Shown here: piece by piece, positions 44,660-63,129 of the stretch
Layout: every line of letters begins with the position of its first letter
Numbering within the stretch: the stretch's first letter is position 1
From: Klenkia soli
GTDB taxonomy: Bacteria; Actinomycetota; Actinomycetes; Mycobacteriales; Geodermatophilaceae
Reading direction: 5' to 3'
Assembly: GCF_900103975.1 (NCBI RefSeq)
Contig: NZ_FNIR01000002.1
Span: forward strand, 186,001 to 250,000
DNA length: 64,000 bases
Notes under the pieces: generated by a model
What the model was told of the DNA's origin: nothing
The model's input: only the letters and a program-made list of their open reading frames with translations
Database searches by the model: none
Translations under genes and position numbers: made by a program

Positions 44660-45859
44660 TCAGTGGCGGACGCCGGCCTGCACCAGCAGCGGGAGGATGT
44701 CGCTCTCGAACATCCCGAGCTCCTCGAGCGGGTCGATGAGGCCCATGATCATCCCGTCCATGCCGGCCTGGTTGAGCTTCACCAGCTCCTCGGCGACCTG
44801 CTCCGGCGTCCCGACGATCGGGTAGCCGCCCCAGCCGGCGATGAAGCGCTCCTGGTACTCCTTCACGACGTGGTCGAAGGACTGCGACGCGCCCGAGCTG
44901 GCGATCTTGATGACGTTGCCGGCGGCGCCCCAGTCGCCCTCGTCGATCACGTCCTGGAACGCGGCCTTGGCCTCGGCCTCGGTGTCGCGGCAGACGATGA
45001 GCCCGTAGGTCATGGTCTGGATGGCCCGCTGGTGCTCGCTCTTCGCCTTCTCCTTCAGCGTCGAGGTGTAGGTCTTCACGTTCTCGAGGGTGTCGAGCGA
45101 GGCGAAGTTGACGTCGACGTTGCGGGCGGAGAACTCGATGCCGGCCGGGGAGTTGCCGGCGTTGATCAGCGCCGGGCGGGGGCCCTGCACGGGCTTGGGG
45201 TAGGCCTCGACGTCCATGCCGTGGAAGTACTTCCCGTCGACGTCGAAGCTGCCCTCCTCGGCCCACAGCTTGAAGGCGAAGTCCAGCCACTCCTGGCCGA
45301 AGGCGTAGCGCTCGTCGTGCTCGCGCTGCTCGCGGCCGAACATCTCCATCTCGGGGGTCACCCAGCCCATGACCAGGTTGAGCGCGAACCGCCCGCCGGA
45401 GATGTGGTCGATCGTGGTGGCCTGCTTGGCCGAGACGATCGGGTGCATGGTCGGCAGGTGCGAGGTCGCGGCGATCGCGATGTTCTCGGTGGCCTCGGCC
45501 AGGCCCGCGGCCCAGGTGTAGGTCTCGAAGCAGTTGCCGTTGAAGTTGGTCGAGCCGCCGAAGCCCTTCCACCGCGCGACCGGGATCATCGCCTCGAAGC
45601 CCAGCCGGTCGGCCTTCTGCGCGATCGCCTTGGTGTGCTCCCAGGTGATCTCGTAGCTGCTGGCCGCGTGGCTCATGATCAGCCCGTAGGAGCAGTTGGT
45701 GCCGAACAGGCCCAGCTTCATGCCCTGGTCGTTGAACAGCGGGTTGGTCGTGGTGCGGTCGGCCAGCGGCTTGGTCTCGGCCGGCGGCCGGGGGTCGGTC
45801 GGGGCCAGGCCCAGTCGCTCGTTGGCGCGCTGGGTGGGACGGTCGTCGGTGGTCGTCAC
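44660..45859 (-). CDS. LLM-class FMN-dependent monooxygenase (RutA/SfnG-like)
   Basis: A 399-residue luciferase-like TIM-barrel enzyme using reduced FMN and O2. Typical segments: MKLGLFGTNCSYGLIMSH after a roughly 45-residue hydrophilic lead, KAIAQKADRLGFEAMIPVARWKGFGG, ATTIDHISGGRFALNLVMGW, and EHDERYAFGQEWLDFAFKLW. The layout is closest to pyrimidine monooxygenase RutA, dimethylsulfone monooxygenase SfnG and DszA; the true substrate is not evident. GTG 45859 is chosen; longer frames run through the promoter. Flavin reductases for it are encoded nearby at 47.4 and 51.5 kb. Confidence 0.85.
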   Translation of the reverse strand: MTTTDDRPTQRANERLGLAPTDPRPPAETKPLADRTTTNPLFNDQGMKLGLFGTNCSYGLIMSHAASSYEITWEHTKAIAQKADRLGFEAMIPVARWKGFGGSTNFNGNCFETYTWAAGLAEATENIAIAATSHLPTMHPIVSAKQATTIDHISGGRFALNLVMGWVTPEMEMFGREQREHDERYAFGQEWLDFAFKLWAEEGSFDVDGKYFHGMDVEAYPKPVQGPRPALINAGNSPAGIEFSARNVDVNFASLDTLENVKTYTSTLKEKAKSEHQRAIQTMTYGLIVCRDTEAEAKAAFQDVIDEGDWGAAGNVIKIASSGASQSFDHVVKEYQERFIAGWGGYPIVGTPEQVAEELVKLNQAGMDGMIMGLIDPLEELGMFESDILPLLVQAGVRH

Positions 45860-45928
45860 GCGGGGCTCCTCGGCAGGTCGTCGGCCCGGGCGCGGTGTGC
45901 CCTGGACCACGTTCGAGGTCGACGCTAG

Positions 45929-45963
45929 GAGCGCACGGATGCCCGGGACAGCCGCCCAGCGCA
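45929..45963 (-). promoter_or_regulatory. Shared catabolic operator, LLM gene copy
   Basis: CAGCCGCCCAGCGCA (45949-45963) matches CATCCGCCCAGCGCA before the CoA-transferase operon at 14 of 15 bases, 90 bp upstream of the LLM start. GAGCGCACGGATG (45929-45941) is identical to a 13-mer ahead of the aldehyde dehydrogenase. Confidence 0.6.
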
Positions 45964-46029
45964 CGAGAGCGACCGCTCCCCGCAGACCTGCCGGCGAGCC
46001 CCTGACCAGCGCGGACGCCCAGGACGACG

Positions 46030-46094
46030 CAGGCATGGGAGCCCGTGCACCTACCTCCGGCCCCGCGAGGTAGGTGCATGGGCTCCCATGCCTG
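46030..46094. repeat. Long palindromic element, left copy
   Basis: 28-bp arms (46030-46057 and 46067-46094) with one G-T wobble and a 9-nt loop. The conserved core is GGCATGGGAGCCC(A/G)TGCACC on one arm and its complement on the other, also found at 58646-58712. It begins 22 bp beyond the ribBA stop, so it may also terminate that operon. Confidence 0.85.
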
Positions 46095-46115
46095 GGTGGT
46101 GCGGGGAGGGCCGGG

Positions 46116-47375
46116 TCAGGTGCCGGCGACCGGGAGGTCCAGGACGGCGGACAGCTCCGACCCCGCGCTGAACGCATGGCCCATCCGTTCCCGCTTCGTG
46201 CGCAGGTAGCGGATGTTGTGCGGGGTCTCCACCGTCGGCAGGTGCACCCGGCCGGTGATGGTGAGGCCGTAGCCCTCCAGGCCGCTGTACTTGGCCGGGT
46301 TGTTGGTGATCAGCCGGATCCGGGTGGCGCCGAGGTCGCCGAGGATCTGGGCGCCGACGCCGTAGGAGCGGGAGTCGACGGGCAGGCCCTGGGCGGTGTT
46401 GGCGTCCACGGTGTCCAGGCCCTGCTCCTGCAGGCCGTAGGCGCGGATCTTGTGGCCCAGCCCGATGCCGCGGCCCTCGTGCCCGCGCAGGTAGACCACC
46501 GCCCTGGTGCCCTCGGCGGCGATGGTGGCCAGCGCCGCCTCGAGCTGGCCGCCGCAGTCGCAGCGCAGCGACCCGAGGATGTCCCCGGTCAGGCAATCGG
46601 AGTGCACCCGAACCAGGGCGCCGGCACCGGTGCGCGAGGCGGCGGCCAGGTCGCCCATGACCAGCGCGAGGTGCTCGGTGCCGTCGAGGGTGTTGCGGTA
46701 GGCCAGTGCCCGGAAGTCGCCGAACTCGGTGGGCATCTGCGCCGACCCGACCAGCTCGACCAGCTGCTCGGTGGCCCGGCGGTGCCGCACCAGGTCCGCG
46801 ATCGCCAGGACCGGCAGCCCGTGCTCGGCCGCGAAGGCCGTCAGCGAGGCCCCGGCGCGCATGGAGCCGTCCTCGTCGACGATCTCCCCGATCACGCCCA
46901 CGCCGGAGAGCCCGGCCATGGTGGTGAGGTCGACGGCGGCCTCGGTGTGCCCGGCGCGCACCAGCACACCGCCCTCGCGGGCGATGAGGGGGAACACGTG
47001 CCCGGGACGGCGGAACTCCGCCGCCGGAGCCGAGGTCAGGGACCGGACGGTGAGCGCACGGTCGGCCGCCGACACCCCGGTGGAGGTGTCGAGGTGGTCC
47101 ACGGTCACCGTGAACGCCGTCCCGTGGTTGTCGGTGTTCTCGGTGACCATCAGCGGCAGCTGCAGCTCCGCGGCCCGCGCGGCGCGCATCGGGGCGCAGA
47201 CGATGCCGGTGGTGTGCCGGACGACGAAGGCCATCTGCTCCGTCGTGCACCGCTCCGCCGCGATGATCAGGTCGCCCTCGTTCTCCCGGTCCTCGTCGTC
47301 GACCACGACGACCATGCCGCCGGCGGCGAGCGCCGCGACCGCGGTCTGCACGGCCTCGGTCGGGGTGCGCTTCAC
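46116..47375 (-). CDS. ribBA: Bifunctional DHBP synthase / GTP cyclohydrolase II
   Basis: A 419-residue enzyme supplying both precursors of riboflavin. The N-terminal DHBP synthase has VVVVDDEDRENEGDLIIAAE and the late GHTEAAVDL. The C-terminal GTP cyclohydrolase II has the zinc cysteines in DCLTGDILGSLRCDCGGQ and YLRGHEGRGIGLGHKIRAYGLQ. GTG 47375 overlaps the flavin reductase stop. Its place in a catabolic operon rather than a ribDEAH cluster suggests extra FMN supply for the LLM monooxygenase. Confidence 0.94.
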   Translation of the reverse strand: MKRTPTEAVQTAVAALAAGGMVVVVDDEDRENEGDLIIAAERCTTEQMAFVVRHTTGIVCAPMRAARAAELQLPLMVTENTDNHGTAFTVTVDHLDTSTGVSAADRALTVRSLTSAPAAEFRRPGHVFPLIAREGGVLVRAGHTEAAVDLTTMAGLSGVGVIGEIVDEDGSMRAGASLTAFAAEHGLPVLAIADLVRHRRATEQLVELVGSAQMPTEFGDFRALAYRNTLDGTEHLALVMGDLAAASRTGAGALVRVHSDCLTGDILGSLRCDCGGQLEAALATIAAEGTRAVVYLRGHEGRGIGLGHKIRAYGLQEQGLDTVDANTAQGLPVDSRSYGVGAQILGDLGATRIRLITNNPAKYSGLEGYGLTITGRVHLPTVETPHNIRYLRTKRERMGHAFSAGSELSAVLDLPVAGT

Positions 47376-47854
47376 GAGATGGCCTCCAGTGCGGCGTGGG
47401 TGCCGAACACCCGGGAGTGGTAGGTCAGCGGCGCCCCGTCGACGGTCGCTGCGCCCCGGACCAAGCCGAGGGCCACCACGTGGTCGCCGCCCTCGACCAG
47501 CTGGTCGACGTCGCAGGCCAGCCATCCGGGCGCCCCCGGCAGCCGGGGCAGGCCCTGGTCGTCGGTCCAGTCGACGGCGGCGAACTTGTCGGGGCCCTTG
47601 CGCGCGAACGACAGCGCCAGCGCCGACTGGGTCGAGCCGAGCACGTTGACCCCGAACCGGCCGGTCTCCCGGACCAGCGCCAGCAGGTCGGAGCCGCGGT
47701 CGAGGGAGACCAGCACCATCGGCGGGTCCATCGACAGCGACGCGAACGCCGACACCGTCGTCCCGTGCGGGACGCCGTCGGCCGACACCGCGGTGATGAC
47801 CGAGACCGGGGTGGCGACCCCGGCCATCACCTCGCGGAAGGACTCCGCCAGCAC
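47372..47854 (-). CDS. Flavin reductase (two-component monooxygenase partner)
   Basis: A 160-residue flavin-reductase-like protein (SFREVMAGVATPVSVITAVSADGVPHGTTVSAFASLSMDPPMVLVSL), the split-barrel type that delivers FMNH2 or FADH2 to a monooxygenase. GTG start 3 bp after the aldehyde dehydrogenase stop; it overlaps ribBA by GTGA. It is the natural partner of the LLM enzyme at 44.7 kb. Confidence 0.92.
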   Translation of the reverse strand: MLAESFREVMAGVATPVSVITAVSADGVPHGTTVSAFASLSMDPPMVLVSLDRGSDLLALVRETGRFGVNVLGSTQSALALSFARKGPDKFAAVDWTDDQGLPRLPGAPGWLACDVDQLVEGGDHVVALGLVRGAATVDGAPLTYHSRVFGTHAALEAIS

Positions 47855-47857: not shown

Positions 47858-49342
47858 TCAGCCCAGCTGGAACGGGTCGCGGGTGCCGCCGGTCAGCTCG
47901 ATGAACACCGACTTGTTCTCGGTGTACTCGTTGACCGCCTCGACGCCGTTCTCGCGGCCGATGCCGGAGTTGCCGAACCCGCCGAAGGGCATGTTCGGGG
48001 CCACCACGCGGTAGGCGTTCACCCAGACCGTGCCGGCGCGCAGCTTGGCCGCGACCCGGTGCGCGCGGTGCACGTCCTTGGTCCACACCGCGCCGGCCAG
48101 GCCGTACGGGGTGTCGTTGGCCAGCTTCAGCGCCTCGTCCTCGTCGGTGAACGTGTAGGCGGCCAGCACCGGCCCGAACACCTCCTCGCGCACGATGGTG
48201 TTCTCCGGGCCCACGTTCGTGACCACGGTGGGCTTGACGAACAGCCCGCCCAGCTCGGCGGCCGGCTCGCCGCCGCAGGCGAAGGTGGCGCCCTCGGCCG
48301 CGGCGCCCTGCAGGTAGCCCAGCACCTTCTCGTACTGCGGCCGGTTGGCCACCGGGCCCATCTCGGTGTCGGCGTCGTTGGGGTCACCGAGCACGATCTC
48401 GTTCGCCCGGGCGGCGATCTTCTCGACCAGGGCGTCGTGCACCTCGGCGTGCACGATCAGCCGCGAGCCGGCCATGCAGGTCTGGCCGGTGGCGGCGAAC
48501 ACGCCCGCGACCAGGCCGTTGGCGGCGGCGTCGAGGTCGGCGTCGGCGAAGACGATCTGCGGGCTCTTGCCGCCCAGCTCCAGGGTGACCTTGTTCAGGT
48601 TGCTCACCGCGGCCCGGGCGACGGCGGCACCGGTGGCGGTGGAGCCGGTGAAGGCCACCTTGTCCACGCCGCTGTGCGAGGCCAGCGCCTCACCGGTCGA
48701 GCGGTCCCAGCCGGTGACGACGTTGAGCACGCCGGCGGGCAGCCCGGCCTCGTGCAGCACCTGGGCGAACGCCACGGTGGAGGCCGGGGAGTGCTCCGAC
48801 GGCTTGACCACGCAGGTGTTGCCGGCGGCCAGCAGCGGCGCCAGCTTGAAGGTCAGCAGCAGCAGCGGGGAGTTCCACGGCGTGATGGCCCCGACGACGC
48901 CGACCGGCTCGCGCACCGTGTAGCCGAAGTAGTTGGGGTTCACCGGCGGGACGGTGCGGCCCTCGAGCTTGTCGGCCAGGCCGGAGAAGTAGTAGTACCA
49001 CTGGTTCAGCCCGGTGAGCTGGCCGCGCATCTCGCGCATGAGCTTGCCCGAGTCGTTGACCTCGAGCTGGGCCAGCCGCTCGGCGTTGGCCAGGATCGCG
49101 TCCCCGCACTTCCGCATGATCGCCGCGCGCTGGAAGCCGGTCATCTGCCCCCACTCGCCGTCGAAGGCGGCGCGGGCCGAGGCCACGGCGGCGTCGACGT
49201 CCTCCGGTGCGCCGTCGGCGAGCACCGCCCAGGCCTGCCCGGTGTAGGGGTTCTGCGACTCGAAGGTCTTCCCGGAGCGGGCGGGGACGGACTCCCCGCC
49301 GATGAACAGTCCGAAGGTCTCGAGCTCGGTGGCGGTCGTCAT
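47858..49342 (-). CDS. Aldehyde dehydrogenase
   Basis: A 494-residue NAD(P)-dependent ALDH. Catalytic Cys is in FAATGQTCMAGSR and Glu in LELGGKSPQIVF; the NAD-site segment is GAITPWNSPLLLLTFKLAPLLAAGNTCVVKPSEHSP and the C-terminal region carries PFGGFGNSGIGRENG. First gene of the ALDH-flavin reductase-ribBA operon, with the shared operator 67-89 bp upstream. It would convert an aldehyde made by the monooxygenase or a dehydrogenase into an acid. Confidence 0.94.
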   Translation of the reverse strand: MTTATELETFGLFIGGESVPARSGKTFESQNPYTGQAWAVLADGAPEDVDAAVASARAAFDGEWGQMTGFQRAAIMRKCGDAILANAERLAQLEVNDSGKLMREMRGQLTGLNQWYYYFSGLADKLEGRTVPPVNPNYFGYTVREPVGVVGAITPWNSPLLLLTFKLAPLLAAGNTCVVKPSEHSPASTVAFAQVLHEAGLPAGVLNVVTGWDRSTGEALASHSGVDKVAFTGSTATGAAVARAAVSNLNKVTLELGGKSPQIVFADADLDAAANGLVAGVFAATGQTCMAGSRLIVHAEVHDALVEKIAARANEIVLGDPNDADTEMGPVANRPQYEKVLGYLQGAAAEGATFACGGEPAAELGGLFVKPTVVTNVGPENTIVREEVFGPVLAAYTFTDEDEALKLANDTPYGLAGAVWTKDVHRAHRVAAKLRAGTVWVNAYRVVAPNMPFGGFGNSGIGRENGVEAVNEYTENKSVFIELTGGTRDPFQLG

Positions 49343-49407
49343 CGACAGCTCCTCAGGTGCAGGTGGTGGCGGTCACGTCGAACGGTAGGGACGTCACGCC
49401 GGGCCCA

Positions 49408-49431
49408 CCATCCGCTGAGAGCGCACGGATG
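49408..49431 (-). promoter_or_regulatory. Shared catabolic operator, ALDH operon copy
   Basis: CCATCCGCTGAG (49408-49419) runs into GAGCGCACGGATG (49419-49431), an inverted CATCCG...CGGATG arrangement 67-89 bp before the ALDH ATG. The 13-mer recurs ahead of the LLM gene, and the ATCCGCTGAG part recurs at 60740. Confidence 0.6.
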
Positions 49432-49436
49432 ACCGG

Positions 49437-50516
49437 CTACAGCAGCGACCCGTCGAGCACGCCGCGGGCGGTGCGGACGGCGACCACGGCCCAGGCGCCC
49501 AGCAGGACGGCGAACAGCGCAACCGCGGCGACCTGCAGGAACGTCTCGCCGGTGTGCGCGGCCAACCCCGAGGTGCCCGTGACCACGGTGCCCACCGGGA
49601 AGGTGAACGACCACCAGGTCAGCGTGAAGGGCAGGTGCGCCCGGGCGGTGCGCACGGTCACCGCGGTCGCGATGCCCGCCCACAGCAGCGCGAACCCCCA
49701 GACCGGCAGCCCGTACACCAGGCCCAGGGCCTGGAACGCCGCGGCGTAGGGCGACGGGACGGCGAGGTGCGCCTGCGTGCCCAGGTTGTTCGCGGCGGTG
49801 ATCGACTGGCCGAGCGGACCGAGCACGATCCACAGGGTGGGCACCATCGCGGCCGCCCCCACCTTGTGCCGCGCCAGCCGGCCCCACACCAGCGTGATCA
49901 CGACCAGGCTGGCCAGCAGCGAGAGCCCGAACATCGACCAGCACAGCGTGAACAGGGTGGTGCGCAGCTGGCCGGCCGGCAGTTCGGGCACCAGCAGCGC
50001 CCCGGTCGCCGCCGACACCATGGGCGGGACGACGGGCATGAGCCAGCCGCCGAACGCGGCGTCCTCGGGCACGTCGTGCCGGGTGAACACCAGGTACGGG
50101 ACGCCGACCGCGGTGACCAGCCCGTAGCCGGTGCCGGCCACCCAGAGGACGGCGAACACCCCCAGCGCCGCCGACGACCCGATCAGGTCGGCACCCACCA
50201 GGTGGGTGGCCACGCCGAAGGCCAGCAGCGCCATCGGCGGCGCGCCGTAGAAGTGCGCCATGACCGGGTTCGAGGCGTGCCCGCGGGCGGCTCCGGGGTG
50301 GTGCCGCCAGTGCAGGACGGTGGCCGTGGACACCGCCAGCAGCAGCACCCCCGCCAGCACCCACACCACCTGTGCCAGCAGCCGCAGCCCGGGTACCTGC
50401 ACCGGCAGGGTCACCGCGGCGGTCGCCACGATCGAGGTGCCCATCACCGAGGCGAACCAGTTCGGCCCGATCGAGGCGACCTGCGGGTGTGCGGGTGCGG
50501 CGAGGGTGGCGGTCAT
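49437..50516 (-). CDS. TDT-family transporter (TehA/SLAC1-like)
   Basis: A 359-residue membrane protein with about ten helices: GPNWFASVMGTSIVATAAVTL near the start, then FYGAPPMALLAFGVATHLVG and TLTWWSFTFPVGTVVTGTSGLA. This family includes tellurite-resistance, malate and sulfite transporters and SLAC1 anion channels. An organic-acid or sulfite exporter would suit the catabolic context, but this is inference. Divergent from a LysR gene that probably controls it. Confidence 0.85.
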   Translation of the reverse strand: MTATLAAPAHPQVASIGPNWFASVMGTSIVATAAVTLPVQVPGLRLLAQVVWVLAGVLLLAVSTATVLHWRHHPGAARGHASNPVMAHFYGAPPMALLAFGVATHLVGADLIGSSAALGVFAVLWVAGTGYGLVTAVGVPYLVFTRHDVPEDAAFGGWLMPVVPPMVSAATGALLVPELPAGQLRTTLFTLCWSMFGLSLLASLVVITLVWGRLARHKVGAAAMVPTLWIVLGPLGQSITAANNLGTQAHLAVPSPYAAAFQALGLVYGLPVWGFALLWAGIATAVTVRTARAHLPFTLTWWSFTFPVGTVVTGTSGLAAHTGETFLQVAAVALFAVLLGAWAVVAVRTARGVLDGSLL

Positions 50517-50572
50517 GGCTCCACGGTGCAGCCCGCGTGGGGCGCCCGGTAGCTGCCGCGACGCTGTGGGTG

Positions 50573-50589
50573 CACAAGCCGACCTTGTG
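50573..50589. promoter_or_regulatory. LysR binding-site candidate
   Basis: CACAAG (50573-50578), CCGAC, CTTGTG (50584-50589): a perfect 6-bp dyad in the 86-bp gap between the TDT transporter and its divergent LysR gene. Confidence 0.5.
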
Positions 50590-50602
50590 GGACCATCAAC
50601 CC

Positions 50603-51517
50603 GTGCCCCTGAGCCCGCACGTGCCCGAGCTGGGGGCGCTCGAGCTGCTGCTCGACGTCGTGGCCACCGGCAGCATCGGTGCGGCCGGCCGGCGGCACGG
50701 CATCAGCCAGCAGGCCGCCTCGGCCCGGCTGCGCACCCTGGAGCGGCAGGCCGGGGTCGCCGTGCTCGACCGGCGGGCCCGCGGCACCCGGCTGACCGAG
50801 GCCGGGACGGCGTTCGCGGCCTGGGCGACCCGGGTGGTCGAGGCCGCCGCCGAGCTGGACGCCGGGCTCGCCGCCCTGCGGCACGACGGCGCGGCCCGGC
50901 TGCGGCTGGCGTCGAGCATGACGGTCGCCGAGCACCTCGTGCCCGGGTGGCTGGCAGCACTGCGCCGCCGGGGCGACGCCGCGCAGGTGACCCTGACCGC
51001 CACCAACAGCGCCGCGGTGGCCGACCTCGTCCGGTCCGGAGGGGTCGACCTCGGGCTGGTCGAGGGCCCCGATCCGCTGGGCGACCTGCAGCAGGCCGTG
51101 GTCGGCCACGACCAGCTGGTGCTCGTCGTGGCCCCCGACCACCCCTGGGCCACCCGTCGCCGTCCGGTCGACGCCGCGCTGCTGGCCCGCACGCCGCTGG
51201 TGACCCGGGAGCCGGGCTCGGGCACCCGCACCGCCTTCGAGCAGGCCCTGGGGATGCCGGCGGCCGCGCCGGTGCTGGAGCTGAGCACCGCGACCGCCGT
51301 CCGGGAGTCGGTGCGGGCCGGGCTCGGGCCGGCCGTGCTGTCGGCGCTGGCGGTCGCCGGTGACCTGCGGGAGCACCGGCTGGTGGCGGTCGCCGTCGCC
51401 GGGGTGGACCTGCGGCGCCGGTTGCGCGCGGTCTGGGTGGGTGGCCCGCAGCTGCCGGCCGGCCCGGCCCGCGACCTGGTGGCCCTGGCGGCCCGGCCGC
51501 TCAGACCTGCGGGGTGA
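50603..51517 (+). CDS. LysR-family transcriptional regulator
   Basis: A 304-residue regulator with HTH ELLLDVVATGSIGAAGRRHGISQQAASARLRTLERQAGVAVLDR near residues 10-55, then a periplasmic-binding-like effector domain. GTG 50603 is the first sensible start. Divergent from the TDT transporter; its 3' end overlaps the convergent FMN reductase gene by 17 bp. The effector is unknown. Confidence 0.9.
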   Translation: MPLSPHVPELGALELLLDVVATGSIGAAGRRHGISQQAASARLRTLERQAGVAVLDRRARGTRLTEAGTAFAAWATRVVEAAAELDAGLAALRHDGAARLRLASSMTVAEHLVPGWLAALRRRGDAAQVTLTATNSAAVADLVRSGGVDLGLVEGPDPLGDLQQAVVGHDQLVLVVAPDHPWATRRRPVDAALLARTPLVTREPGSGTRTAFEQALGMPAAAPVLELSTATAVRESVRAGLGPAVLSALAVAGDLREHRLVAVAVAGVDLRRRLRAVWVGGPQLPAGPARDLVALAARPLRPAG

Positions 51518-52034
51518 GCGCCCGGATCGCCGCCGACCCCTGCACCGCGGTGGTGAGGTCGACCAGGGCGCGGCCGTGCGACGCCGCCAGCTCGGCGGCG
51601 TCGGCGGTGAGGTCGGTGCCGTCGAAGTGCGGGTGGGTGAGCACCAGGCCGGGGCTGAGCACCTGGCAGCCGTAGAACCCGGCGAGCAGGCTGCGCAGCG
51701 AGTCCTGGGCCAGGAAGTGCTCCGGGGCGTTGTTGGTCATCACGATCGCGGCGGTCGTGCCGGCCAGGTGGGCCTTCGTCTCGGTGGTGTACCTGCCCCG
51801 CTCGGCGACCTCGAACAGGCTGCGCAGCAGGCTGGAGAACGACGCCCGGTAGGTGGGGCTGCCGAACACGACCGCGTCGGCGGCCTCCATCGCGTCCAGC
51901 ACGGTCGCGACGTCGGTGTCGGCCAGGCTCAGCTTCTGCGTGTCGGCGCCGGTGCAGCCGGCCAGCACGCCCGCGACCCCGGCGTCCGTCCGTCCGCCGA
52001 CCGACGGGCTGCCCACGATCCCCAGCACCCTCAC
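51501..52034 (-). CDS. NAD(P)H-dependent FMN reductase
   Basis: A 177-residue flavodoxin-fold reductase: phosphate loop VLGIVGSPSVGGRTDAGV at the start, FGSPTYRASFSSLLRSLFE at the flavin site. SsuE/MsuE-like enzymes of this type feed FMNH2 to sulfonate and other LLM monooxygenases. The GTG overlaps the HMG-CoA-lyase-like stop (GTGA). It is the second reductase of the region. Confidence 0.88.
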   Translation of the reverse strand: MRVLGIVGSPSVGGRTDAGVAGVLAGCTGADTQKLSLADTDVATVLDAMEAADAVVFGSPTYRASFSSLLRSLFEVAERGRYTTETKAHLAGTTAAIVMTNNAPEHFLAQDSLRSLLAGFYGCQVLSPGLVLTHPHFDGTDLTADAAELAASHGRALVDLTTAVQGSAAIRALTPQV

Positions 52035-52948
52035 GAGAACTCCCCCCGGGGCCGGCTGACGCCGCCGGCGCGGAACAGCGAACTGGGCAGCGGGTGCTCG
52101 ACGGCCCGCTCGGTGGCGGCGGCCGCGACGAGCACGGCGTCCAGGTCGATGCCGGTCTCGACCCCCGAGTCGGTGAGCCAGTAGACGAGCTCCTCGGTGG
52201 CGATGTTGCCGCTGGCGCCCGGGGCGAACGGGCAGCCGCCCAGCCCGCCGACGGAGGCGTCGAGCTGGGTGACCCCGGCCTGGACGGCGGCCAGCGCGTT
52301 GGCCTGGCCGGTGCCGCGGGTGTCGTGGAAGTGCGCGCCGAGCGGCAGCCCGGGGGCCGCCGCGGCCACGGCGTCGAGCAGGTCGACCGTGCGGCGCGGG
52401 GTGACCGTGCCGATCGTGTCGCCCAGGCAGAGCTGGTCGGCGCCCTGCGCGACGGCGGACCGGACGACGTCCAGCACCCGGGACGGATCGGTCCGTCCGT
52501 CGAACGGGCAGTCCCACGCGGTCGCGATGATGACCTCGAGCGTGCCGCCGGCGGCGTGCGAGACCTCGGCGATGGCGCCGATGGCCTCGGCGGCCTCGGC
52601 GGTGGGTCGGCCGGCGTTGGCCCGGGAGTGCGAGTCGGCGGCGCTGACCACGTACTCCAGGTGCGGGATGCCGGCGTCGACCGCCCGCTGCGCGCCGCGC
52701 AGGTTGGCGACCAGCGCCGAGAAGTGCACGCCGTCGAAGCGGTGCAGCTGCGCGGCGAGCTGGTCGGCGTCGGCCAGCGCGGGCACGGCCTTCGGCGAGA
52801 CGAACGAGGTCACCTCGATCCGACCCACGCCGGTGGCGACCAGCGCCTCGAGCATCTCCAGCTTGGCCGCCAGCGGTACCGGCTCCTCCAGCTGGAGCCC
52901 GTCGCGCATGCCGACCTCGCGGACGTCGACCCGGTCGGGCAGCTCCAC
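52031..52948 (-). CDS. Hydroxymethylglutaryl-CoA lyase-like protein
   Basis: A 305-residue DRE-TIM metallolyase: VREVGMRDGLQLEEP (Arg/Asp metal and substrate site), EVTSFVSPKAVPALADAD, ATAWDCPFDGR, GAHFHDTRGTG (metal histidines) and VGGLGGCPFAPGASGNIATEEL with the mobile catalytic cysteine. It cleaves a 3-hydroxy-3-methylacyl-CoA to acetyl-CoA and a ketoacid or ketone. Paired with a CoA-transferase, it may act on a pathway-specific substrate rather than HMG-CoA. GTG start abuts the CaiB stop. Confidence 0.9.
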   Translation of the reverse strand: MELPDRVDVREVGMRDGLQLEEPVPLAAKLEMLEALVATGVGRIEVTSFVSPKAVPALADADQLAAQLHRFDGVHFSALVANLRGAQRAVDAGIPHLEYVVSAADSHSRANAGRPTAEAAEAIGAIAEVSHAAGGTLEVIIATAWDCPFDGRTDPSRVLDVVRSAVAQGADQLCLGDTIGTVTPRRTVDLLDAVAAAAPGLPLGAHFHDTRGTGQANALAAVQAGVTQLDASVGGLGGCPFAPGASGNIATEELVYWLTDSGVETGIDLDAVLVAAAATERAVEHPLPSSLFRAGGVSRPRGEFS

Positions 52949-54151
52949 TCAGACCACCCCCTGCTCGGCGAGCTCGGTCAGGTCGTCGGCGGTGAGCCCG
53001 AGCAGCTCGCCGTAGACCTCGGCGTTGTGCGTGCCCGGCCGCGGCGGGCCGGCCCAGCGGACCGACCCGGGCGTGGCCGACAGCTGCGGGGTGACCCCGG
53101 GGCCCAGGACGTCGGCGCCGACGCCCAGGTCGTGGTGGGGCACCAGCATGTCGCGGGCCAGGAACTGCTCGTCGGTGACGACCTCGGCGACGGTGGCCAC
53201 CGGACCGACGACGACGCCGGCCGCGCTGCAGCGGGCGACGACGTCCTCGGGCGGGAGCGCCTTGGCCCAGGCACCGATCAGCGCGTCGAGCTCGTCCTGG
53301 TGCTTCGCCCGGGCGGTGTGCGTGGCGTAGCGCTCGTCGTCGGCCAGCTCGGGCCGGTCCATCGCCCCGCACAGCCGGCGGAACAGGGTGTCCTGGTTGG
53401 CCGCGATGATCACGAAGGTGCCGTCTGCGGTCTCGTAGCTGTTGGACGGCGCGATGGCGTCCAGCCGGGTGCCGCTGGGCTGCCGGACCAGCCCGGCGCG
53501 GGAGTAGTCGGGGACCATCGACTCGGTCACCGCCAGGCAGGAGTCGGTGAGCGCGGCGTCCACCACCTGGCCCTGCCCCGTGCGGGCGCGGGCGACCAGC
53601 GCGGTGAGGATGCCCTGGCAGGCGAACATGCCGGCCAGCGAGTCGCCGATCGACAGCGCCATGCGCACCGGGGCCTGGCCGGGGAAGCCGGTGACGAAGC
53701 GCAGCCCGGCGCGGGCCTCGGCCACGCTGGCGTAGCCGGGCTGCGCGGCCAGCGGACCGGTCTGCCCGTAGCCGGACACCCGGGCCAGCACCAGCCCGGG
53801 GTTCACGTCGGACAGCACGTCGTAACCCAGGCCCCAGCGCTCGAGGGTGCCCGGGCGGAAGCTCTCCACGACGACGTCGGCGCCCGCGACCAGCTGCAGG
53901 AACATCTCCTGGCCGCGCGGTTGCCGCAGGTCCAGGGTCACGCAGCGCTTGTTGCGGGCGTGCACGGTCCAGAAGAACCCGCGGCCGGCCTCGTGCGCCT
54001 GGCCCCAGGTGCGCAGCGGGTCGGGTCGGTCGGGTGCCTCGATCTTGACGACGTCGGCGCCCTGGTCACCCAGCAGCCGGCCGGCGAAGGGGCCGGCGAT
54101 CAGCGTGCCGATCTCCAGCACCCGCAGGCCCTCGAGCGCTCCGGTGGACAT
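52949..54151 (-). CDS. CaiB/BaiF-type CoA-transferase (class III)
   Basis: A 400-residue class III CoA-transferase: LRVLEIGTLIAGPFAGRLLGDQGADVVKIEAPDRPDPLR at the N-terminus, then NKRCVTLDLRQPRG, VVVESFRPGTLERWGLGYD and SGYGQTGPLAAQPGY. It moves CoA onto a carboxylic acid, forming the thioester for the downstream lyase. ATG 54151 with GTGAGGAG. Leads the CoA-transferase/lyase/FMN-reductase operon and follows two operator copies 21 bp apart. Confidence 0.92.
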   Translation of the reverse strand: MSTGALEGLRVLEIGTLIAGPFAGRLLGDQGADVVKIEAPDRPDPLRTWGQAHEAGRGFFWTVHARNKRCVTLDLRQPRGQEMFLQLVAGADVVVESFRPGTLERWGLGYDVLSDVNPGLVLARVSGYGQTGPLAAQPGYASVAEARAGLRFVTGFPGQAPVRMALSIGDSLAGMFACQGILTALVARARTGQGQVVDAALTDSCLAVTESMVPDYSRAGLVRQPSGTRLDAIAPSNSYETADGTFVIIAANQDTLFRRLCGAMDRPELADDERYATHTARAKHQDELDALIGAWAKALPPEDVVARCSAAGVVVGPVATVAEVVTDEQFLARDMLVPHHDLGVGADVLGPGVTPQLSATPGSVRWAGPPRPGTHNAEVYGELLGLTADDLTELAEQGVV

Positions 54152-55923: not shown

Positions 55924-56892
55924 GTGCGCCCACCCGCCCCGGACCAGCAGGTGCTGACCTGCGGTGCGGCCGGGCCCGAGGCCTTCGAGCAGTGGCGGGC
56001 GCTGATCAGCGACACCTTCGTGCCGCTCACCGCGACCCCGACCACCGACCGGCCCTTCCGCGGCGAGCTGCGCGTCGTCACCCACCCGGCGGTGCAGCTC
56101 ACCGAGGTGCGGGCGCAGGGCCAGCACGTGGCGCGCACCCGGCAGCTCATCGCCGGCAGCTGCGAGGACTACCTGCTGGCCAGCATCCAGCTCGGTGGCC
56201 GGGGCCGGGTCGAGCAGGACGGGCGCACCGCCGTCCTCACCCCGGGCGCGATGACCTTCTACGACAGCACCCGGCCCTACGTGCTCCACTTCGACGACGC
56301 GTTCGAGCAGCTGGTGGTCCAGCTGCCCCGGCGTCCGCTGCTGGCCGCGGCGGGCATCCCCGACGACGGCGTGCACCTCACCGCCGTCGCCCTCGAGGCC
56401 GGCGGTCCGGGGTCGGTGCTGGCCGGGTTCTTCTCCTCGCTCGCCCTGGTGCACGACCGTGACCCGGTCGGGGCCGCCCAGCTCAGCGCGCACGCGCCGG
56501 GGCTGCTGGCCTCGGCCCTGCGGCTGGCGGCCGGCCAGGGGGCCGGGCCCGAGGACGCCGGGCTGGAGCGGGAGCGGGTGCTCGCCCACCTGCGCCGGCA
56601 CGCCGCCGACCCGCACCTGGACGCCGACACCGTGGCCGCGGCCTGCCACCTCTCGCGGCGCGCGCTGTTCCGGCTGTTCGAGGGGCACGAGTCGTGGGCG
56701 TCGGCGCTGCGGCGGATCCGGGTGGAGCGGGCGGCCGGGCTGCTGCTGACCCAGCCGCGTCGCCCGGTCGCCGCGATCGGCACGGCGTGCGGGTTCGCCG
56801 GCGAGGCCCAGTTCCACCGGGCGTTCCGGCAGGTCGTGGGGTGCACCCCCGCCGAGCACCGGGGCCGTGGAGGTGGCACGCAGCGTCGGTGA
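55924..56892 (+). CDS. AraC-family transcriptional regulator 1
   Basis: A 322-residue activator. The N-terminal ligand-binding part resembles the AraC-binding-like domain (LLASIQLGGRGRVEQDGRTAVLTPGAMTFYDSTRPY). The C-terminal double HTH is DADTVAAACHLSRRALFRLFEGHE and RRPVAAIGTACGFAGEAQFHRAFRQVVGCTPAEHR. It sits directly ahead of the nitrilase and is one of two candidates for recognising the shared operator. GTG start. Confidence 0.9.
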   Translation: MRPPAPDQQVLTCGAAGPEAFEQWRALISDTFVPLTATPTTDRPFRGELRVVTHPAVQLTEVRAQGQHVARTRQLIAGSCEDYLLASIQLGGRGRVEQDGRTAVLTPGAMTFYDSTRPYVLHFDDAFEQLVVQLPRRPLLAAAGIPDDGVHLTAVALEAGGPGSVLAGFFSSLALVHDRDPVGAAQLSAHAPGLLASALRLAAGQGAGPEDAGLERERVLAHLRRHAADPHLDADTVAAACHLSRRALFRLFEGHESWASALRRIRVERAAGLLLTQPRRPVAAIGTACGFAGEAQFHRAFRQVVGCTPAEHRGRGGGTQRR

Positions 56893-58645: not shown

Positions 58646-58712
58646 CCCGGCATGGGAGCCCATGCACCCACTCACGAGCCCCGTGGGTAGGTGCATGGGC
58701 TCCCATGCCGGG
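58646..58712. repeat. Long palindromic element, right copy
   Basis: Perfect 23-bp arms (58646-58668 and 58690-58712) around a 21-nt centre containing a further CCCAC/GTGGG pairing. The arm core is the same as at 46030-46094, and similarity continues into GGGTGG on the right. It lies between two convergent genes, so it may double as a terminator. Confidence 0.85.
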
Positions 58713-58725: not shown

Positions 58726-59640
58726 CTACCCCGAGACGCGCTTGTAGGGGTCGCTCGGGGCGGCACCCGCGGCCACGATGCGGCCCGACCAGTCGTCCAG
58801 CTGACGGGTGAGCGCCTCGACGTCGTCGCCGATCGGTGCCAGCACCCGGGCCATCGCCTCGTCGGTGACCTGCTCGATGCGGTCGCGCTCGGCCCGGCCG
58901 GTCGCGGTGAGCTCGCCGTCGGCCAGCCAGCCGCGCTCGCGCAGGTCGGCGTCGGCGGCGTCCATGATCTCGGGTGCCCAGCCGCGGGTGCCGGCGTAGG
59001 CCCGCCGCTCCCAGCCGATCCAGTACTCGGTCACCAGGTTCATCTGGACGCCGGTCAGCCCGGCGGCGACGTTGGCCGCCTGGTGGGTGTCACCCCGGTA
59101 CTCCCGCAGGATGTTCAGCGCGTGCCACAGCTGCCCCCACGGGTCGCTCGGCCACTCCAGCGACGCCAGCCCGGCCACGAGCGGGCGGCCGGCGACGTCG
59201 GCGACGGCCACGTCGGTGGCCCGGCGCAGCTGCGCGACCGCGGTCTCGACCTCACCGGTGGGGACGTCGCCCAGGATCTCGTGCAGCGACTCCACCGCGC
59301 CCCGCTCGCGGGCGGCCAGCACGTCGGCGCGCGAGGCGATCCCGCGGGCCTGGTCGTACAGCTGGGCTACCAGGCCGGGCTCGAACACCCCGAACGCGGC
59401 GACGACGACCGGCGCGGTCGGCTCGCCCATCGGCGCGGTGCGGCCCCACACGTAGCCGGTCAGGAACTCCAGGCCCAGCGCCTCCATGGCCGCGTAGGCG
59501 GGCATGCCCCAGAAGCCGATGGTGGCCAGCGGCTCGGCGGCGTCGCGCAGCGACCGCGCGGCGCCGGCCGGGATGCGCGGTGCCGGGCGGCCGGCGGAGG
59601 GCTCGGCGAGGAAGGCGGCCGACAGTTCGTCGTAGTCCAC
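58726..59640 (-). CDS. SCO6745-family protein
   Basis: A 304-residue, mostly helical soluble protein. Segments such as TIGFWGMPAYAAMEALGLEFLTGYVWGRTAPMGEP, VVVAAFGVFEPGLVAQLYDQARG and LRREYRG-like LNILREYRGDTHQAANVAAGL match what I know of the actinobacterial SCO6745 family, which has no assigned biochemical role. The GTG at 59640 is used. It follows the second AraC gene by 17 bp on the same strand, so co-expression is likely. Confidence 0.75.
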   Translation of the reverse strand: MDYDELSAAFLAEPSAGRPAPRIPAGAARSLRDAAEPLATIGFWGMPAYAAMEALGLEFLTGYVWGRTAPMGEPTAPVVVAAFGVFEPGLVAQLYDQARGIASRADVLAARERGAVESLHEILGDVPTGEVETAVAQLRRATDVAVADVAGRPLVAGLASLEWPSDPWGQLWHALNILREYRGDTHQAANVAAGLTGVQMNLVTEYWIGWERRAYAGTRGWAPEIMDAADADLRERGWLADGELTATGRAERDRIEQVTDEAMARVLAPIGDDVEALTRQLDDWSGRIVAAGAAPSDPYKRVSG

Positions 59641-59657: not shown

Positions 59658-60629
59658 TCAGTGGCGCAGGGTGGCGGACGGGAGCTCGCCGAAGCGGTCC
59701 CGGTACTGCTGGGCGAAGCGGCTCTGGTGGAAGAAGCCCCAGCGCATGGCGACGTCGGTGACCCGCACCGTGCTCGGGTCGGCGTGCACCAGCTCGGCGC
59801 GCACGCGGTCCAGCCGCACCCGGCGCAGGTAGCTCATCGGCGACTCGCCGTACTGCTGCTGGAAGGCCGCGTGCAGGGTGCGCACGCTCATGCACCCCAC
59901 CCGGGCCAGCTGCTGCGGGGTGAGCGCCTGGTCGGCGTGCTCCTCGAGGTAGGCGACCACCGGCGCCAGCCGGCCGTGCTCCAGGGCCTTGGCCGGTGCG
60001 GCGAGGGCGTCGGAGAACTGGTGCCGCCCGGCGTGCAGCAGCTGGGTCATCACGAATGCCTCGAGCTGCTCGCGGGCCAAGGGCATCTCGGCCAGCCCGC
60101 CGGGCCGGTCGAGCTCACGGGCCAGGAACTCCACCGAGTTCAGCAGCGACTGCCCGGCCGGGGCGGTGAGGTCCAGGCCGAAGTCGAAGTCCAGCACCTC
60201 GGCCACCGACCGCCCGACCAGGTCGCCGAGGTGGGACTCGAGGCTGGCCCGCGGGATCTTGAGGATCAGCTGCTCGGCGTCGGGGGTCCAGCGGACGGTG
60301 TTGCGCTGCCGCGGGTTCAGCACCGCGCCCGACACCCGGGCCAGCGTGCGGGTGCGGGCGCCGTCGGAGCGGTCGGCGTCGGTGCTGCCCGCGGTGGTGA
60401 GGTTGACGTGGTAGCAGTCCTCGGTCGGCGGCATGACCAGCTCGGTCTGCGCCCCGTAGGTCAGGTAGCCGAGGGTGAAGTTCCGGTCCGTGACGGCGTT
60501 GAGCCGCATGTCCACCTGGTCGGCGGGGGCGCTGAGGTCGTGCTGGAGGTAGACGCGGGTGACGGCGTCCTGGGCCTCCTCGAGGCTGTGGGTGCCCACC
60601 ACGGGGAACCGCGACAGCGGCTCGCTCAC
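59658..60629 (-). CDS. AraC-family transcriptional regulator 2
   Basis: A 323-residue regulator. The N-terminal effector domain includes FTLGYLTYGAQTELVMPPTEDCYHVNLTTAGS. The C-terminal double HTH is TPQQLARVGCMSVRTLHAAFQQQYGESPMSYLRRVRLDRVRAEL and TVRVTDVAMRWGFFHQSRFAQQYRDRFGELPS. GTG 60629 is preferred over 60635 because GGAGGG then lies about 9 nt upstream. It is divergent from the transketolase-like gene, and the shared operator lies between them. Confidence 0.9.
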   Translation of the reverse strand: MSEPLSRFPVVGTHSLEEAQDAVTRVYLQHDLSAPADQVDMRLNAVTDRNFTLGYLTYGAQTELVMPPTEDCYHVNLTTAGSTDADRSDGARTRTLARVSGAVLNPRQRNTVRWTPDAEQLILKIPRASLESHLGDLVGRSVAEVLDFDFGLDLTAPAGQSLLNSVEFLARELDRPGGLAEMPLAREQLEAFVMTQLLHAGRHQFSDALAAPAKALEHGRLAPVVAYLEEHADQALTPQQLARVGCMSVRTLHAAFQQQYGESPMSYLRRVRLDRVRAELVHADPSTVRVTDVAMRWGFFHQSRFAQQYRDRFGELPSATLRH

Positions 60630-60739
60630 GGACACCCTCCGCCCCGGACCTCGTCGTCTCGCATGTGGCGCGGGCCACAGCTCGACCCGCAACCTAGGTG
60701 GGGCACGACCGGGTTGCCAACCGTTGCGTGCGAACGGGT

Positions 60740-60753
60740 ATCCGCTGAGCGCA
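60740..60753 (+). promoter_or_regulatory. Shared catabolic operator, transketolase-like gene copy
   Basis: ATCCGCTGAGCGCA, 70 bp before the transketolase-like ATG and 111 bp from the AraC-2 start. Its first ten bases equal the site before the aldehyde dehydrogenase; the ALDH copy has two extra bases before CGCA. GTGCGGATCGG follows nearby as an inverted half-site. Confidence 0.5.
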
Positions 60754-60822
60754 GCGCCGTGCGGATCGGTCGCTGCGGTCAACGGCTGGCCGCCCCGCCA
60801 CCGGTCGGCCACCCTGGTGGGC

Positions 60823-63129
60823 ATGACCGCTGTGGCCCCGACCCGTGCCGACGCCGCCCTCCGCGAGATCGAGGAGCGGGTGCTGTGGTTGGCCAGCGCG
60901 ATCGTCGACCACGCCAACCGGGTGCGGCCCAACCCCACCGGGCTGAAGGTCGGCGGGCACCAGGCGTCGTCCGCGTCGATCACCACGATCATGACCGCGC
61001 TGTGGCTGGAGACCCTCGGCCCCGAGGACCGGGTGTCGGTCAAGCCGCACGCCTCGCCGGTGCTGCACGCCCTGGAGTACCTGCTGGGCCAGCTGCCCGC
61101 CGACAAGCTCACCACGCTGCGGGAGTTCGGCGGCCTGCAGTCCTACCCCTCGCGGCTCAAGGACCCCGTGCCCGCCGACTACTCCACCGGCTCGGTCGGC
61201 ATCGGGGCCACCGCGCCGATCTGGGGCGCGATCGCCCGCCGGTACGTCAACACCCAGTTCGGCACCGGGGGCGCCGGCCGGCAGTGGTCCCTGGTGGGGG
61301 ACGCCGAGCTCGACGAGGGCGCGGTGTGGGAGGCCGTGGTCGACCCCATGGTCGCCGAGCTGGGCGAGGTCGTGTGGGTGGTGGACCTGAACCGGCAGTC
61401 GTTGGACCGCGTCGTCCCCACGTTCGGCGCGACCCGGTTGCAGGGCATGTTCGCCGCCGCCGGCTGGCAGGTGCTCACCGTCAAGTACGGCGCGCTGCTG
61501 GAGGAGCTGTTCACCCGCGACGGCGGCCCCGAGCTGCGCGACCGCATCGACGAGATGACCAACCCGGAGTACCAGCGCATGCTGCGCCGCTCGGCCGACG
61601 AGCTGCGCGCGCAGCTGCCCGGGGACGGCGCCGGGGCCGCCGCGATCGCGGGCCTGATCGCCGGGGTGGCCGACGACGACCTGGTCGCCGCGGTGCGCAA
61701 CCTGGGCGGGCACGACCTCGCCGCGCTGCGCACGGCGTTCGGGCAGATCGACGACACCCGGCCCACCGTGGTGCTGGCCTACACGCTGAAGGGCTACGGG
61801 CTGGCCACCGAGGGGCACCCGCAGAACCACTCGGCGCTGCTCAGCGAGGCCCAGCTGCACGAGCTGGCCGCCCGCGTCGGGGTGGACCCGGCCGACCCGT
61901 GGGCCCGCTTCGCCCCGACGTCCGAGCCCGGCCGGTTGCTGTCCGCCGCGGCCGGGCGGCTGGCCCGCACCGAGCACGAGGGGGCGCCGGCCCCCGCCGT
62001 CCCCACCGACCTGGGGCGCACCCCGAACGGGACGGCGACCACGCAGGCCGCCCTGGGCCGCACCCTGCTCGACCTCAACCGGGCCGCCCCCGAGGCCGGC
62101 GCCCGCGTGGTGACGGTCAGCCCGGACGTGTCCAGCTCCACCAACCTGGGCGGCTGGGTGAACAAGGTCGGCGTCTGGTCGGCCGAGGACCGCCGCGACT
62201 GGTTCTCCGACGACCCCGAGACGATCCTGCACTGGCGCGAGCGGCCCAGCGGCCAGCACGTCGAGCTGGGCATCGCCGAGGTCAACCTGGTCGGGCTGAT
62301 GGGCGAGCTGGGTTCCACGTGGAACCGGTGGTCGCAGCCCCTGTTGCCGATCGGCGTCATGTACGACCCGTTCGTCTCCCGGGCGCTCGAGCCGTGGAGC
62401 TTCGGGGTCTACGCCGGTGGTCAGTCGATCCTGGTCGGGACGCCGTCCGGGGTGACGCTGGCCGGCGAGGGCGGGGCGCACCAGTCGATCACCACGCCGT
62501 CCATCGGGTTGGAGCAACCCGGCGTGGTCACCTACGAGCCCGGGTTCGCCCTCGACACCGAGTGGTGCCTGCTCGCCTCGCTGGGCCGGCTGGGGCGACC
62601 CGACGGCACGAGCGCCTACCTGCGGCTGTCCACCCGGCCGGTCGACCAGACCCTGGCCGCGGTCCCCGACGACCCGGCCGCCCGTGAGCGGCGCCGTCGG
62701 CAGGTGGTGGCCGGGGCGTACGTGCTGCGCCGGGTCGCCGAGCCCGCCGTCACGGTGGTGACGATGGGCGCGATGATCACCGAGGGCCTGGCCGCGGCCG
62801 ACCGGCTCACCGGGCTCGGCCACCCCGCCGACGTCGTGGTCGTCACGAGCCCGGGCCTGCTGTTCCGCGCGCTGCAGGCCCGCCGGGGCCAGGACGACGC
62901 CGCCACCGCCGTCCTCGACCAGGCCTTCCCCGCCGACCGGGCCGTGCCGATGGTGACCGTGCTCGACGGCCACCCGCACACCCTGGCCTTCCTGGCCGGC
63001 ATCCACCGGGTGCCCGCGGTGCACCTGGGCGTGACCCGGTTCGGCCAGTCCGGCGACCTGGCCAGCGTGTACCGCCACCACGGCATCGACACCGACGCGG
63101 TGGTCGCCGCCGCCCTGGACCTCGTCTGA
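60823..63129 (+). CDS. Transketolase/AceE-like thiamine-diphosphate enzyme
   Basis: A 768-residue ThDP enzyme. The N-terminal half has GGHQASSASITTIMTALWLETLGPEDRVSVKPHASPVLHALEYLLG, SVGIGATAPIWGAIARRYV and the GD...N cofactor motif (LVGDAELDEGAVWEAV through VVDLNRQSLD). The middle domain contains HVELGIAEVNLVGLMGELG, followed by a transketolase C-terminal domain. The overall plan recalls homodimeric pyruvate dehydrogenase E1, but it is about 100 residues shorter and no E2 or E3 gene is near. It may decarboxylate or ligate a 2-oxoacid of the pathway. CACCCT 7 nt before the ATG suggests a leaderless start. Confidence 0.85.
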   Translation: MTAVAPTRADAALREIEERVLWLASAIVDHANRVRPNPTGLKVGGHQASSASITTIMTALWLETLGPEDRVSVKPHASPVLHALEYLLGQLPADKLTTLREFGGLQSYPSRLKDPVPADYSTGSVGIGATAPIWGAIARRYVNTQFGTGGAGRQWSLVGDAELDEGAVWEAVVDPMVAELGEVVWVVDLNRQSLDRVVPTFGATRLQGMFAAAGWQVLTVKYGALLEELFTRDGGPELRDRIDEMTNPEYQRMLRRSADELRAQLPGDGAGAAAIAGLIAGVADDDLVAAVRNLGGHDLAALRTAFGQIDDTRPTVVLAYTLKGYGLATEGHPQNHSALLSEAQLHELAARVGVDPADPWARFAPTSEPGRLLSAAAGRLARTEHEGAPAPAVPTDLGRTPNGTATTQAALGRTLLDLNRAAPEAGARVVTVSPDVSSSTNLGGWVNKVGVWSAEDRRDWFSDDPETILHWRERPSGQHVELGIAEVNLVGLMGELGSTWNRWSQPLLPIGVMYDPFVSRALEPWSFGVYAGGQSILVGTPSGVTLAGEGGAHQSITTPSIGLEQPGVVTYEPGFALDTEWCLLASLGRLGRPDGTSAYLRLSTRPVDQTLAAVPDDPAARERRRRQVVAGAYVLRRVAEPAVTVVTMGAMITEGLAAADRLTGLGHPADVVVVTSPGLLFRALQARRGQDDAATAVLDQAFPADRAVPMVTVLDGHPHTLAFLAGIHRVPAVHLGVTRFGQSGDLASVYRHHGIDTDAVVAAALDLV

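Follow-up and report, generated by a model that had tools for sequence, protein, structure and literature searches.

The closest described operator type to the one treated here is that of XylS, an AraC/XylS-family regulator of catabolic operons, at the Pm promoter of the Pseudomonas putida TOL plasmid. This operator has been published as TGCA-N6-GGNTA-N6-TGCA-N6-GGNTA (PMC4514859; PMC5481539), and a review of XylS/Pm divides it into two direct repeats of 15 bp, each with a box A and a box B (PMC5481539). The DNA analysed in this study is a 64,000-nucleotide stretch of Klenkia soli (contig NZ_FNIR01000002.1, positions 186,001 to 250,000), designated the window; coordinates refer to it unless the locus of a relative is named. 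In its catabolic region, five promoters carry a tandem operator at a fixed distance from a −10-like element, and both this arrangement and the genes that it targets are conserved among genera of actinobacteria. Read in gene direction, the operator consists of two 15-bp direct half-sites, each with box A (TGCR), N6 and box B (GGNTR), at a period of 21 bp. The units behind it, whose promoters all lie within 15 kb, are a luciferase-like monooxygenase (LLM) gene, an aldehyde dehydrogenase (ALDH)–flavin reductase–RibBA operon, a CoA-transferase–hydroxymethylglutaryl-CoA (HMG-CoA) lyase–flavin mononucleotide (FMN) reductase operon, the gene of the regulator AraC2, and a transketolase-like gene. Shared transcripts of the genes behind one promoter are suggested by their spacing.

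The boxes and 21-bp period of XylS/Pm match a motif found de novo in relatives of the locus, TGCACTCAACGGATA, which also fits the half-site TGCA-N6-GGNTA. In both systems two direct repeats are present, the proximal one overlapping the −35 position, and an AraC/XylS-family regulator stands with catabolic operons. They differ in that the present host is actinobacterial, that five dispersed promoters and probable autoregulation are involved, and that the boxes in the window drift towards TGCG and GGMTG. The targets here form an FMN-monooxygenase system and not a meta-cleavage pathway, and the likeness is one of operators.

Among the enzymes, the LLM protein has SfnG (143.7 bits) and RutA (129.5 bits) as its nearest solved structures, and a flavin reductase belongs to the regulon as RutF belongs to rut. 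According to a review on flavins, T105, N134 and V136 line the O2 pocket of RutA (PMC7662398). In the alignment with RutA, the columns that we take, with an inferred numbering offset, as these residues hold T, N and V in the LLM protein. In contrast, its scores are far below the curated cut-offs (SfnG 182 against 383 bits; RutA 168 against 498 bits), and its partners are ALDH, CoA-transferase and HMG-CoA lyase. Clusters for ring cleavage of pyridine and trigonelline (PyrA, TgnB) combine an LLM monooxygenase with a flavin reductase and ALDH, a likeness by description that serves as a lead only; to our knowledge they contain no CoA-transferase or HMG-CoA lyase. Plasmid clusters of Peribacillus frigoritolerans and Variovorax sp. 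RA8 share the LLM gene (44.5 and 49.6% identical), flavin reductase, and RibBA or riboflavin kinase, and the Peribacillus plasmid also has LLM genes with ALDH, CoA-transferase and HMG-CoA lyase. Unlike the Klenkia locus, these clusters include isopropylmalate-dehydratase-like subunits and have GntR regulators nearby, and their best tandem operator scores are 8.8 and 9.6, none with a −10. A distant plasmid-borne version of the regulon was considered and dismissed, since no tandem score above 9.6 was found beside the Variovorax, Rhizobium and Peribacillus homologues. A text search found no publication on such a cluster or pathway, nor on Klenkia AraC regulons, within the literature set and the terms used.

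Operator architecture of the five promoters

A sequence-only reading of the region had proposed that four scattered transcription units share one 15-bp operator-like motif and form a regulon with two AraC regulators. The strings that it quoted are all present: CAGCCGCCCAGCGCA at 45949–45963, CATCCGCCCAGCGCA at 54237–54251, ATCCGCTGAG at 49410 and 60740, and GAGCGCACGGATG at 45929 and 49419. The motif is real and all four of its places are half-sites, but the true unit is a 36-bp tandem pair at a fixed distance to the −10, and the regulon comprises five units. The half-sites of the window are mainly of the form TGC(G/A)-N6-GG(N)T(G/A), that is, TGCG and GGMTG variants.

On the reverse strand, the LLM operator (45949–45984; distal half-site TGCGGGGAGCGGTCG, proximal TGCGCTGGGCGGCTG) is followed by TAGCGT (45922–45927) 21 nt past the proximal site, a spacing that is conserved in relatives. 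The operators of the ALDH operon (49409–49444; TGCTGTAGCCGGTCA and CGCTCTCAGCGGATG) and of the CoA-transferase operon (54216–54251; TGCGCTGGGCGGATG and CGCCGGGGACGGATG), also on the reverse strand, each precede TACCGT (49382–49387 and 54189–54194, respectively). The AraC2 operator (60718–60753, reverse strand; TGCGCTCAGCGGATA and CGCACGCAACGGTTG) precedes TAGGTT (60691–60696) and stands back to back with that of the transketolase-like gene on the forward strand (60753–60788; AGCGCCGTGCGGATC and TGCGGTCAACGGCTG), where the hexamer is a weak CACCCT (60810–60815) without the leading T and 7 nt before the ATG; this gene may have a leaderless transcript. The distance from the end of the proximal half-site to the hexamer is thus 21 nt at all five promoters, and the hexamer is an exact TANNNT at four of them and degenerate at the transketolase-like gene. 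A promoter spacer of 17 bp would make the proximal half-site overlap the −35 position by 2 bp. By eye, no TTGACA-like −35 was seen at the five promoters.

The ATCCGCTGAG copy at 49410 does belong to the ALDH operon, where it fits the half-site in box B and the middle only. The copy at 60740, which the sequence-only reading had assigned to the transketolase-like gene, faces AraC2, as the distal half-site of its promoter; a different pair stands before the transketolase-like gene. The 13-mer GAGCGCACGGATG is identical at its two positions as claimed, but it is no part of the operator: it sits inside the operator at the ALDH operon and between operator and −10 at the LLM gene. As an operator it was therefore rejected, and because it has no exact copy in 35 loci of relatives, its sharing was taken as a coincidence.

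Independent motif tests in the window

The 35 relative loci (685,712 bases in all) were gathered by relatives of the LLM protein and come from Klenkia, Modestobacter, Pseudonocardia, Streptomyces, Actinomycetospora, Mycolicibacterium, Mycobacterium, Nakamurella, Arthrobacter and one unclassified actinomycetote; their gene maps rest on tblastn. One of them (L036) is a near-duplicate of another (L027) and was left out of the de novo motif search and of the counts of −10-bearing sites and −10 offsets. Expectation-maximization (EM), started at random and from no chosen seed, was applied to the regions upstream of ALDH in the loci that belong neither to Klenkia nor to Modestobacter; these number 30, or 29 without the near-duplicate. 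Of 250 random starts, each of the best 12 converged on TGCACTCAACGGATA or its one-base shift.

The resulting position weight matrix was applied to the window as a 21-bp tandem. The promoters of AraC2 (33.9), the transketolase-like gene (18.3), the CoA-transferase operon (14.1), the LLM gene (12.6) and the ALDH operon (9.1) ranked first, second, third, fifth and seventh, all five being among the seven matches above 9, and the next match scored 4.6. When the period was scanned from 15 to 30, seven matches above 8 were found at period 21 and zero to four at every other period. TANNNT stood at offset 21 or 22 in four of the seven window matches above 9, and in none with 300 column-permuted matrices (mean of 2.72 matches above 9, up to 39); its frequency in the window is 0.00019 of positions.

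Conservation in relative loci

Tandem matches above 11 numbered 113 in the 35 loci, and in 105 of them a cluster gene of the matching orientation begins no more than 400 bp downstream; a few of these matches are second registers of one site. In the 99 matches before cluster genes that remain without the near-duplicate, TANNNT occurs at offset 21 in 38 and at offset 22 in 42 (80/99), while all other offsets from 0 to 38 together hold four occurrences. Among the eight matches without a cluster gene behind them, two have TANNNT at 21. Sites with a −10 stand before ALDH (29), AraC2 (21), CoA-transferase (9), flavin reductase (8), RibBA (7) and LLM (6); the upstream regions available, here including the near-duplicate, were 35, 31, 19, 24, 20 and 35, respectively. 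The LLM gene of the relatives is mostly close behind ALDH in the same direction, and would therefore need no site of its own. The ALDH sites outside Klenkia and Modestobacter, and the AraC2 and flavin-reductase sites sharing that intergenic region, are in the training sequence of the matrix; the CoA-transferase, RibBA and LLM sites are mostly outside it.

Gene presence was scored by tblastn (E ≤ 1e-15, at least 100 aa), with some loci ending short. ALDH was matched in 35/35 loci, LLM in 35/35 by selection, AraC2 in 32, flavin reductase in 24, RibBA and HMG-CoA lyase in 20 each, and CoA-transferase in 19. Rarer were the transketolase-like gene (4), the LysR gene (1), and AraC1 and nitrilase (0 each). 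The four loci with the transketolase-like gene are all from Streptomyces, where it lies behind flavin reductase, lyase and CoA-transferase in the same direction; the Klenkia gene lies just outside the relative loci. In six relatives a pair divergent from AraC2 was found (scores 6.6–17.2), with the gene confirmed as transketolase-like in two of the six.

Whole-genome ranking

Two further models were built, with 75 sites that all came from relatives and not from the window: R1, with the 36 columns of the operator, and R2, with spacer and −10 added (64 columns). The rows fell from 80 to 75 on removal of repeated half-site pairs, and rows without TANNNT or without a downstream cluster gene had been dropped. 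In the 4.76-Mb genome of K. soli, R2 placed the five promoters at ranks 1 to 5 among the candidates scored: the CoA-transferase operon (30.8 bits), the ALDH operon (30.5), LLM (28.0), AraC2 (27.5) and the transketolase-like gene (25.9), followed by a sixth match at 16.9 bits. The −10-like elements of the ALDH and CoA-transferase operons are within their R2 matches. With R1, the CoA-transferase, transketolase-like and AraC2 sites rank 1 to 3 among the matches listed, and in the window taken by itself the five promoters fill the top five places. Of the 30 loci listed by the R1 genome search, four, each of which belongs to this cluster, show TANNNT at 21 from their best pair, against 0/26 of the others. 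The claim that the scattered genes form one regulon is thus supported by the genome-wide ranking and by the recurrence of the motif upstream of the corresponding genes in other genera; with operator plus −10, no equally good matches lie scattered elsewhere among the candidates scored.

Several points weigh against the regulon as drawn here. A −10 is absent from two window matches of similar tandem score, at 25094 (12.8) and 10949 (11.2), and periods 24 and 28 yield single pairs that score 18.9 and 21.1, in each case because one half-site, 44085 or 60739, is strong. The −10 of the transketolase-like gene is poor, and TANNNT at 21/22 is missing from the sites before flavin reductase in the four Streptomyces loci and from a site before a second LLM gene in one relative locus (L120). 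The operator alone (R1) ranks LLM 11th and ALDH 35th among the 71 matches listed, and these rise only with the −10 included. The R2 training rows were selected for TANNNT, so that the invariant T, A and T of R2 are there by construction, and Klenkia and Modestobacter sites took part in the training; the TANNNT preference is also present without that selection, in the 99 matches, which were chosen on tandem score only. The genome searches fully scored 150 of 17,531 (R1) and of 19,224 (R2) first-look candidates. When the four R2-training genomes are left out, the co-occurrence of site and AraC2 described below becomes 3/3 versus 4/89 (p = 2.8e-4). One genome (G045) has a good site (E = 1.2e-6) with no AraC2 at E ≤ 1e-60, and the metabolic part of the proposal rests on family names.

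AraC2 as the candidate regulator

AraC2 (59658–60629, reverse strand) is an AraC/XylS-family protein with a C-terminal double helix-turn-helix (HTH), in which HTH_18 and HTH_AraC score above their cut-offs, and an N-terminal ligand/dimerisation domain (AraC_binding_2, 110 bits). Its gene is divergent from and adjoins ALDH in 18/35 loci, often with sites facing both genes. In 96 genomes of the family, where the site search was run with stricter filters, AraC2 orthologues (E ≤ 1e-60) occur in seven, including K. soli. A site (E ≤ 1e-3) was found in 7/7 genomes with AraC2 versus 4/89 without (Fisher p = 2.8e-8). Of the two AraC regulators in the sequence-only reading, AraC2 stands as the candidate; AraC1 (55924–56892) was rejected, and one AraC rather than two is considered, because AraC1 matches none of the 35 relative loci.

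In G045, the clearest of these exceptions, the site (L122 4059–4119) has a −10 and precedes an operon of short-chain dehydrogenase/reductase and flavin monooxygenase (SDR-FMO) type; an AraC gene lies within a few kb of it and has 41% likeness to part of AraC2. A related AraC probably controls this operon as a regulon parallel to the one described here. Because of this site, the operator architecture appears common to AraC2 relatives and not private to AraC2.

Proposed mechanism and alternatives

The region is very probably one substrate-inducible regulon under AraC2 as an AraC/XylS-family activator, likely with class II activation and an FMN-monooxygenase route. AraC2 is predicted from sequence to bind the operators and a ligand and to activate. 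The ligand, a substrate or early intermediate, would bind the N-terminal domain, and two AraC2 monomers would fill the tandem half-sites. Class II activation by an AraC2 dimer is suggested by the 2-bp overlap of the proximal half-site with the −35 position and the lack of a TTGACA-like −35: the proximal monomer may stand in for the missing −35 contact and recruit RNA polymerase, also at the promoter of AraC2 itself. A site that overlaps the −35 position could also exclude polymerase, and one is carried by the promoter of AraC2; AraC2 might then act chiefly by repression, which the inducer would relieve. We regard this as quite improbable. With no TTGACA-like −35 seen by eye, the five promoters look activator-dependent, the 21/22-nt distance in 80/99 matches is as expected of an activator that contacts polymerase, and XylS, the closest operator type, activates, according to its review (PMC5481539).

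It is also unlikely that the regulon and its operator are real but bound by AraC1, by the LysR-type regulator (50603–51517) or by a second AraC paralogue. AraC1 has the same domain make-up as AraC2, upstream of a 48% paralogue of AraC2 a tandem pair lacking TANNNT occurs in three genomes (G022, G050 and G074), and the site occurs in G045 without AraC2; against this, the occurrence of the three genes in the 35 loci (AraC1 0, LysR 1, AraC2 32), the divergent AraC2–ALDH arrangement with its sites, and the tracking of AraC2 by the site across the 96 genomes point to AraC2. That the shared strings arose by chance in a sequence of 74% GC has a practically negligible probability and is regarded as already refuted. 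In its favour, the 15-mer with up to three mismatches has 26 matches against 19.1 expected, a number reached by 6 of 100 shuffles, so that the loose 15-mer, its count being near chance, was discarded as evidence on its own, and the 13-mer is not conserved. The strict form TGCGCTNNGCGGNTR, a reverse complement chosen after the sites were seen and not covering the ALDH copy, has exactly three matches in the K. soli genome (4,758,105 bases), all in this cluster, and its reversed control has none. The held-out motif, the genome-wide ranking, the column permutation, the fixed −10 spacing and the conserved position in front of these genes in other genera all speak against chance.

The regulon is real and better defined than it was in the sequence-only reading, and the kind of system, a XylS-type operator with its activator, is already known. 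Genes that were annotated but unconnected can be tested as a unit for which the regulator is named, the operator is precise and transcription starts are predicted. The operator is readable in relatives as well, so that it can mark the extent of the pathway in each genome and be of use in finding the inducer and so the substrate.

Enzymes of the regulon and inferred pathway

The LLM-class FMN-dependent monooxygenase (44660–45859, reverse strand; Bac_luciferase) is RutA/SfnG-like. All genes of the two operons are on the reverse strand. ALDH (47858–49342; Aldedh, 572 bits), present together with LLM in 35/35 relative loci, is followed by the flavin reductase (47372–47854; Flavin_Reduct) and by RibBA (46116–47375; Pfam, 3,4-dihydroxy-2-butanone 4-phosphate synthase/GTP cyclohydrolase II), which has its own tandem site with a −10 in seven relative loci. 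The other operon encodes a class III CoA-transferase nearest to the succinate–glutarate type (52949–54151; NCBIfam score of 261 bits against an equivalog cut-off of 750), an HMG-CoA lyase family protein (52031–52948; NF004283, 289.6 bits, above the subfamily cut-off of 246) and an FMN-reductase-like protein (51501–52034), named from reading its sequence only, whose gene overlaps the lyase gene by 4 bases. The transketolase-like gene (60823–63129, forward strand; longer frame 60559–63129) encodes a thiamine diphosphate (ThDP) enzyme resembling the homodimeric E1 component of pyruvate dehydrogenase (PDH), with Transketolase_N, PDH_E1_M and Transketolase_C_1 and with PDH E1 as its best solved match (134 bits).

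An oxygenase fed with FMNH2 is suggested by the company of the LLM protein, flavin reductase and RibBA, the latter two of which would supply FMNH2. The LLM monooxygenase might cleave the substrate oxidatively to an aldehyde. From the presence of ALDH, CoA-transferase and the HMG-CoA-lyase family protein, a route from aldehyde to acid, CoA thioester, and acetyl-CoA plus a keto product is suggested: ALDH would oxidise the aldehyde, the CoA-transferase would activate the acid, and the lyase-type enzyme would split the thioester. The ThDP enzyme may handle a 2-oxo acid or ketose. We consider it possible, at a little under an even chance, that these genes encode an undescribed, widespread but patchy actinobacterial catabolic pathway with a RutA-like flavin-N5-oxygenating opening, ALDH/CoA-transfer/HMG-CoA-lyase-type channelling, co-induced RibBA and a XylS-type activator. 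A useful marker of similar pathways could be that RibBA is induced together with a two-component FMN monooxygenase.

Some observations on the relative loci concern these enzymes. A second LLM gene, about 60% identical, occurs in five relatives (G003, G022, G029, G040 and G074); in L120 (2682–3821) it lies behind the transketolase-like gene and has its own tandem pair. No second LLM match was found in the K. soli genome at E ≤ 1e-100. The gene after the Klenkia transketolase-like gene (63129 to about 63500) matches the L120 gene that lies beyond the second LLM. In a Pseudonocardia locus, a flavohaemoglobin-like gene (L021 2145–3302) adjoins RibBA. A tandem site with a −10 in Arthrobacter sp. 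B6 (L045 16582–16617) stands about 400 bp before an ammonium-transporter family gene, a faint hint at a nitrogen-containing substrate.

Neighbouring genes and repeats

Downstream of AraC2, after a 17-bp gap, an HTH_67 family gene (58726–59640, reverse strand; 277 bits) is probably on the AraC2 transcript. The segment 55924–58620 holds the genes of AraC1, a nitrilase and a PPOX-type flavoprotein; AraC1 and the nitrilase occur in 0/35 relative loci and the PPOX-type gene in one, weakly. From its gene content, the segment looks like an insert in this genome with its own regulator. Between the ALDH and FMN-reductase genes, a TDT transporter gene and the divergent LysR gene (49437–51517) were found in 1/35 loci (L014). 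A near-perfect hairpin with the arm GGTGCATGGGCTCCCATGCC lies behind the ALDH operon (46032–46092) and behind the AraC2 operon (58649–58709). With 11 paired copies in the K. soli genome (arms 41 bp apart, up to two mismatches), it is a dispersed terminator-like repeat.

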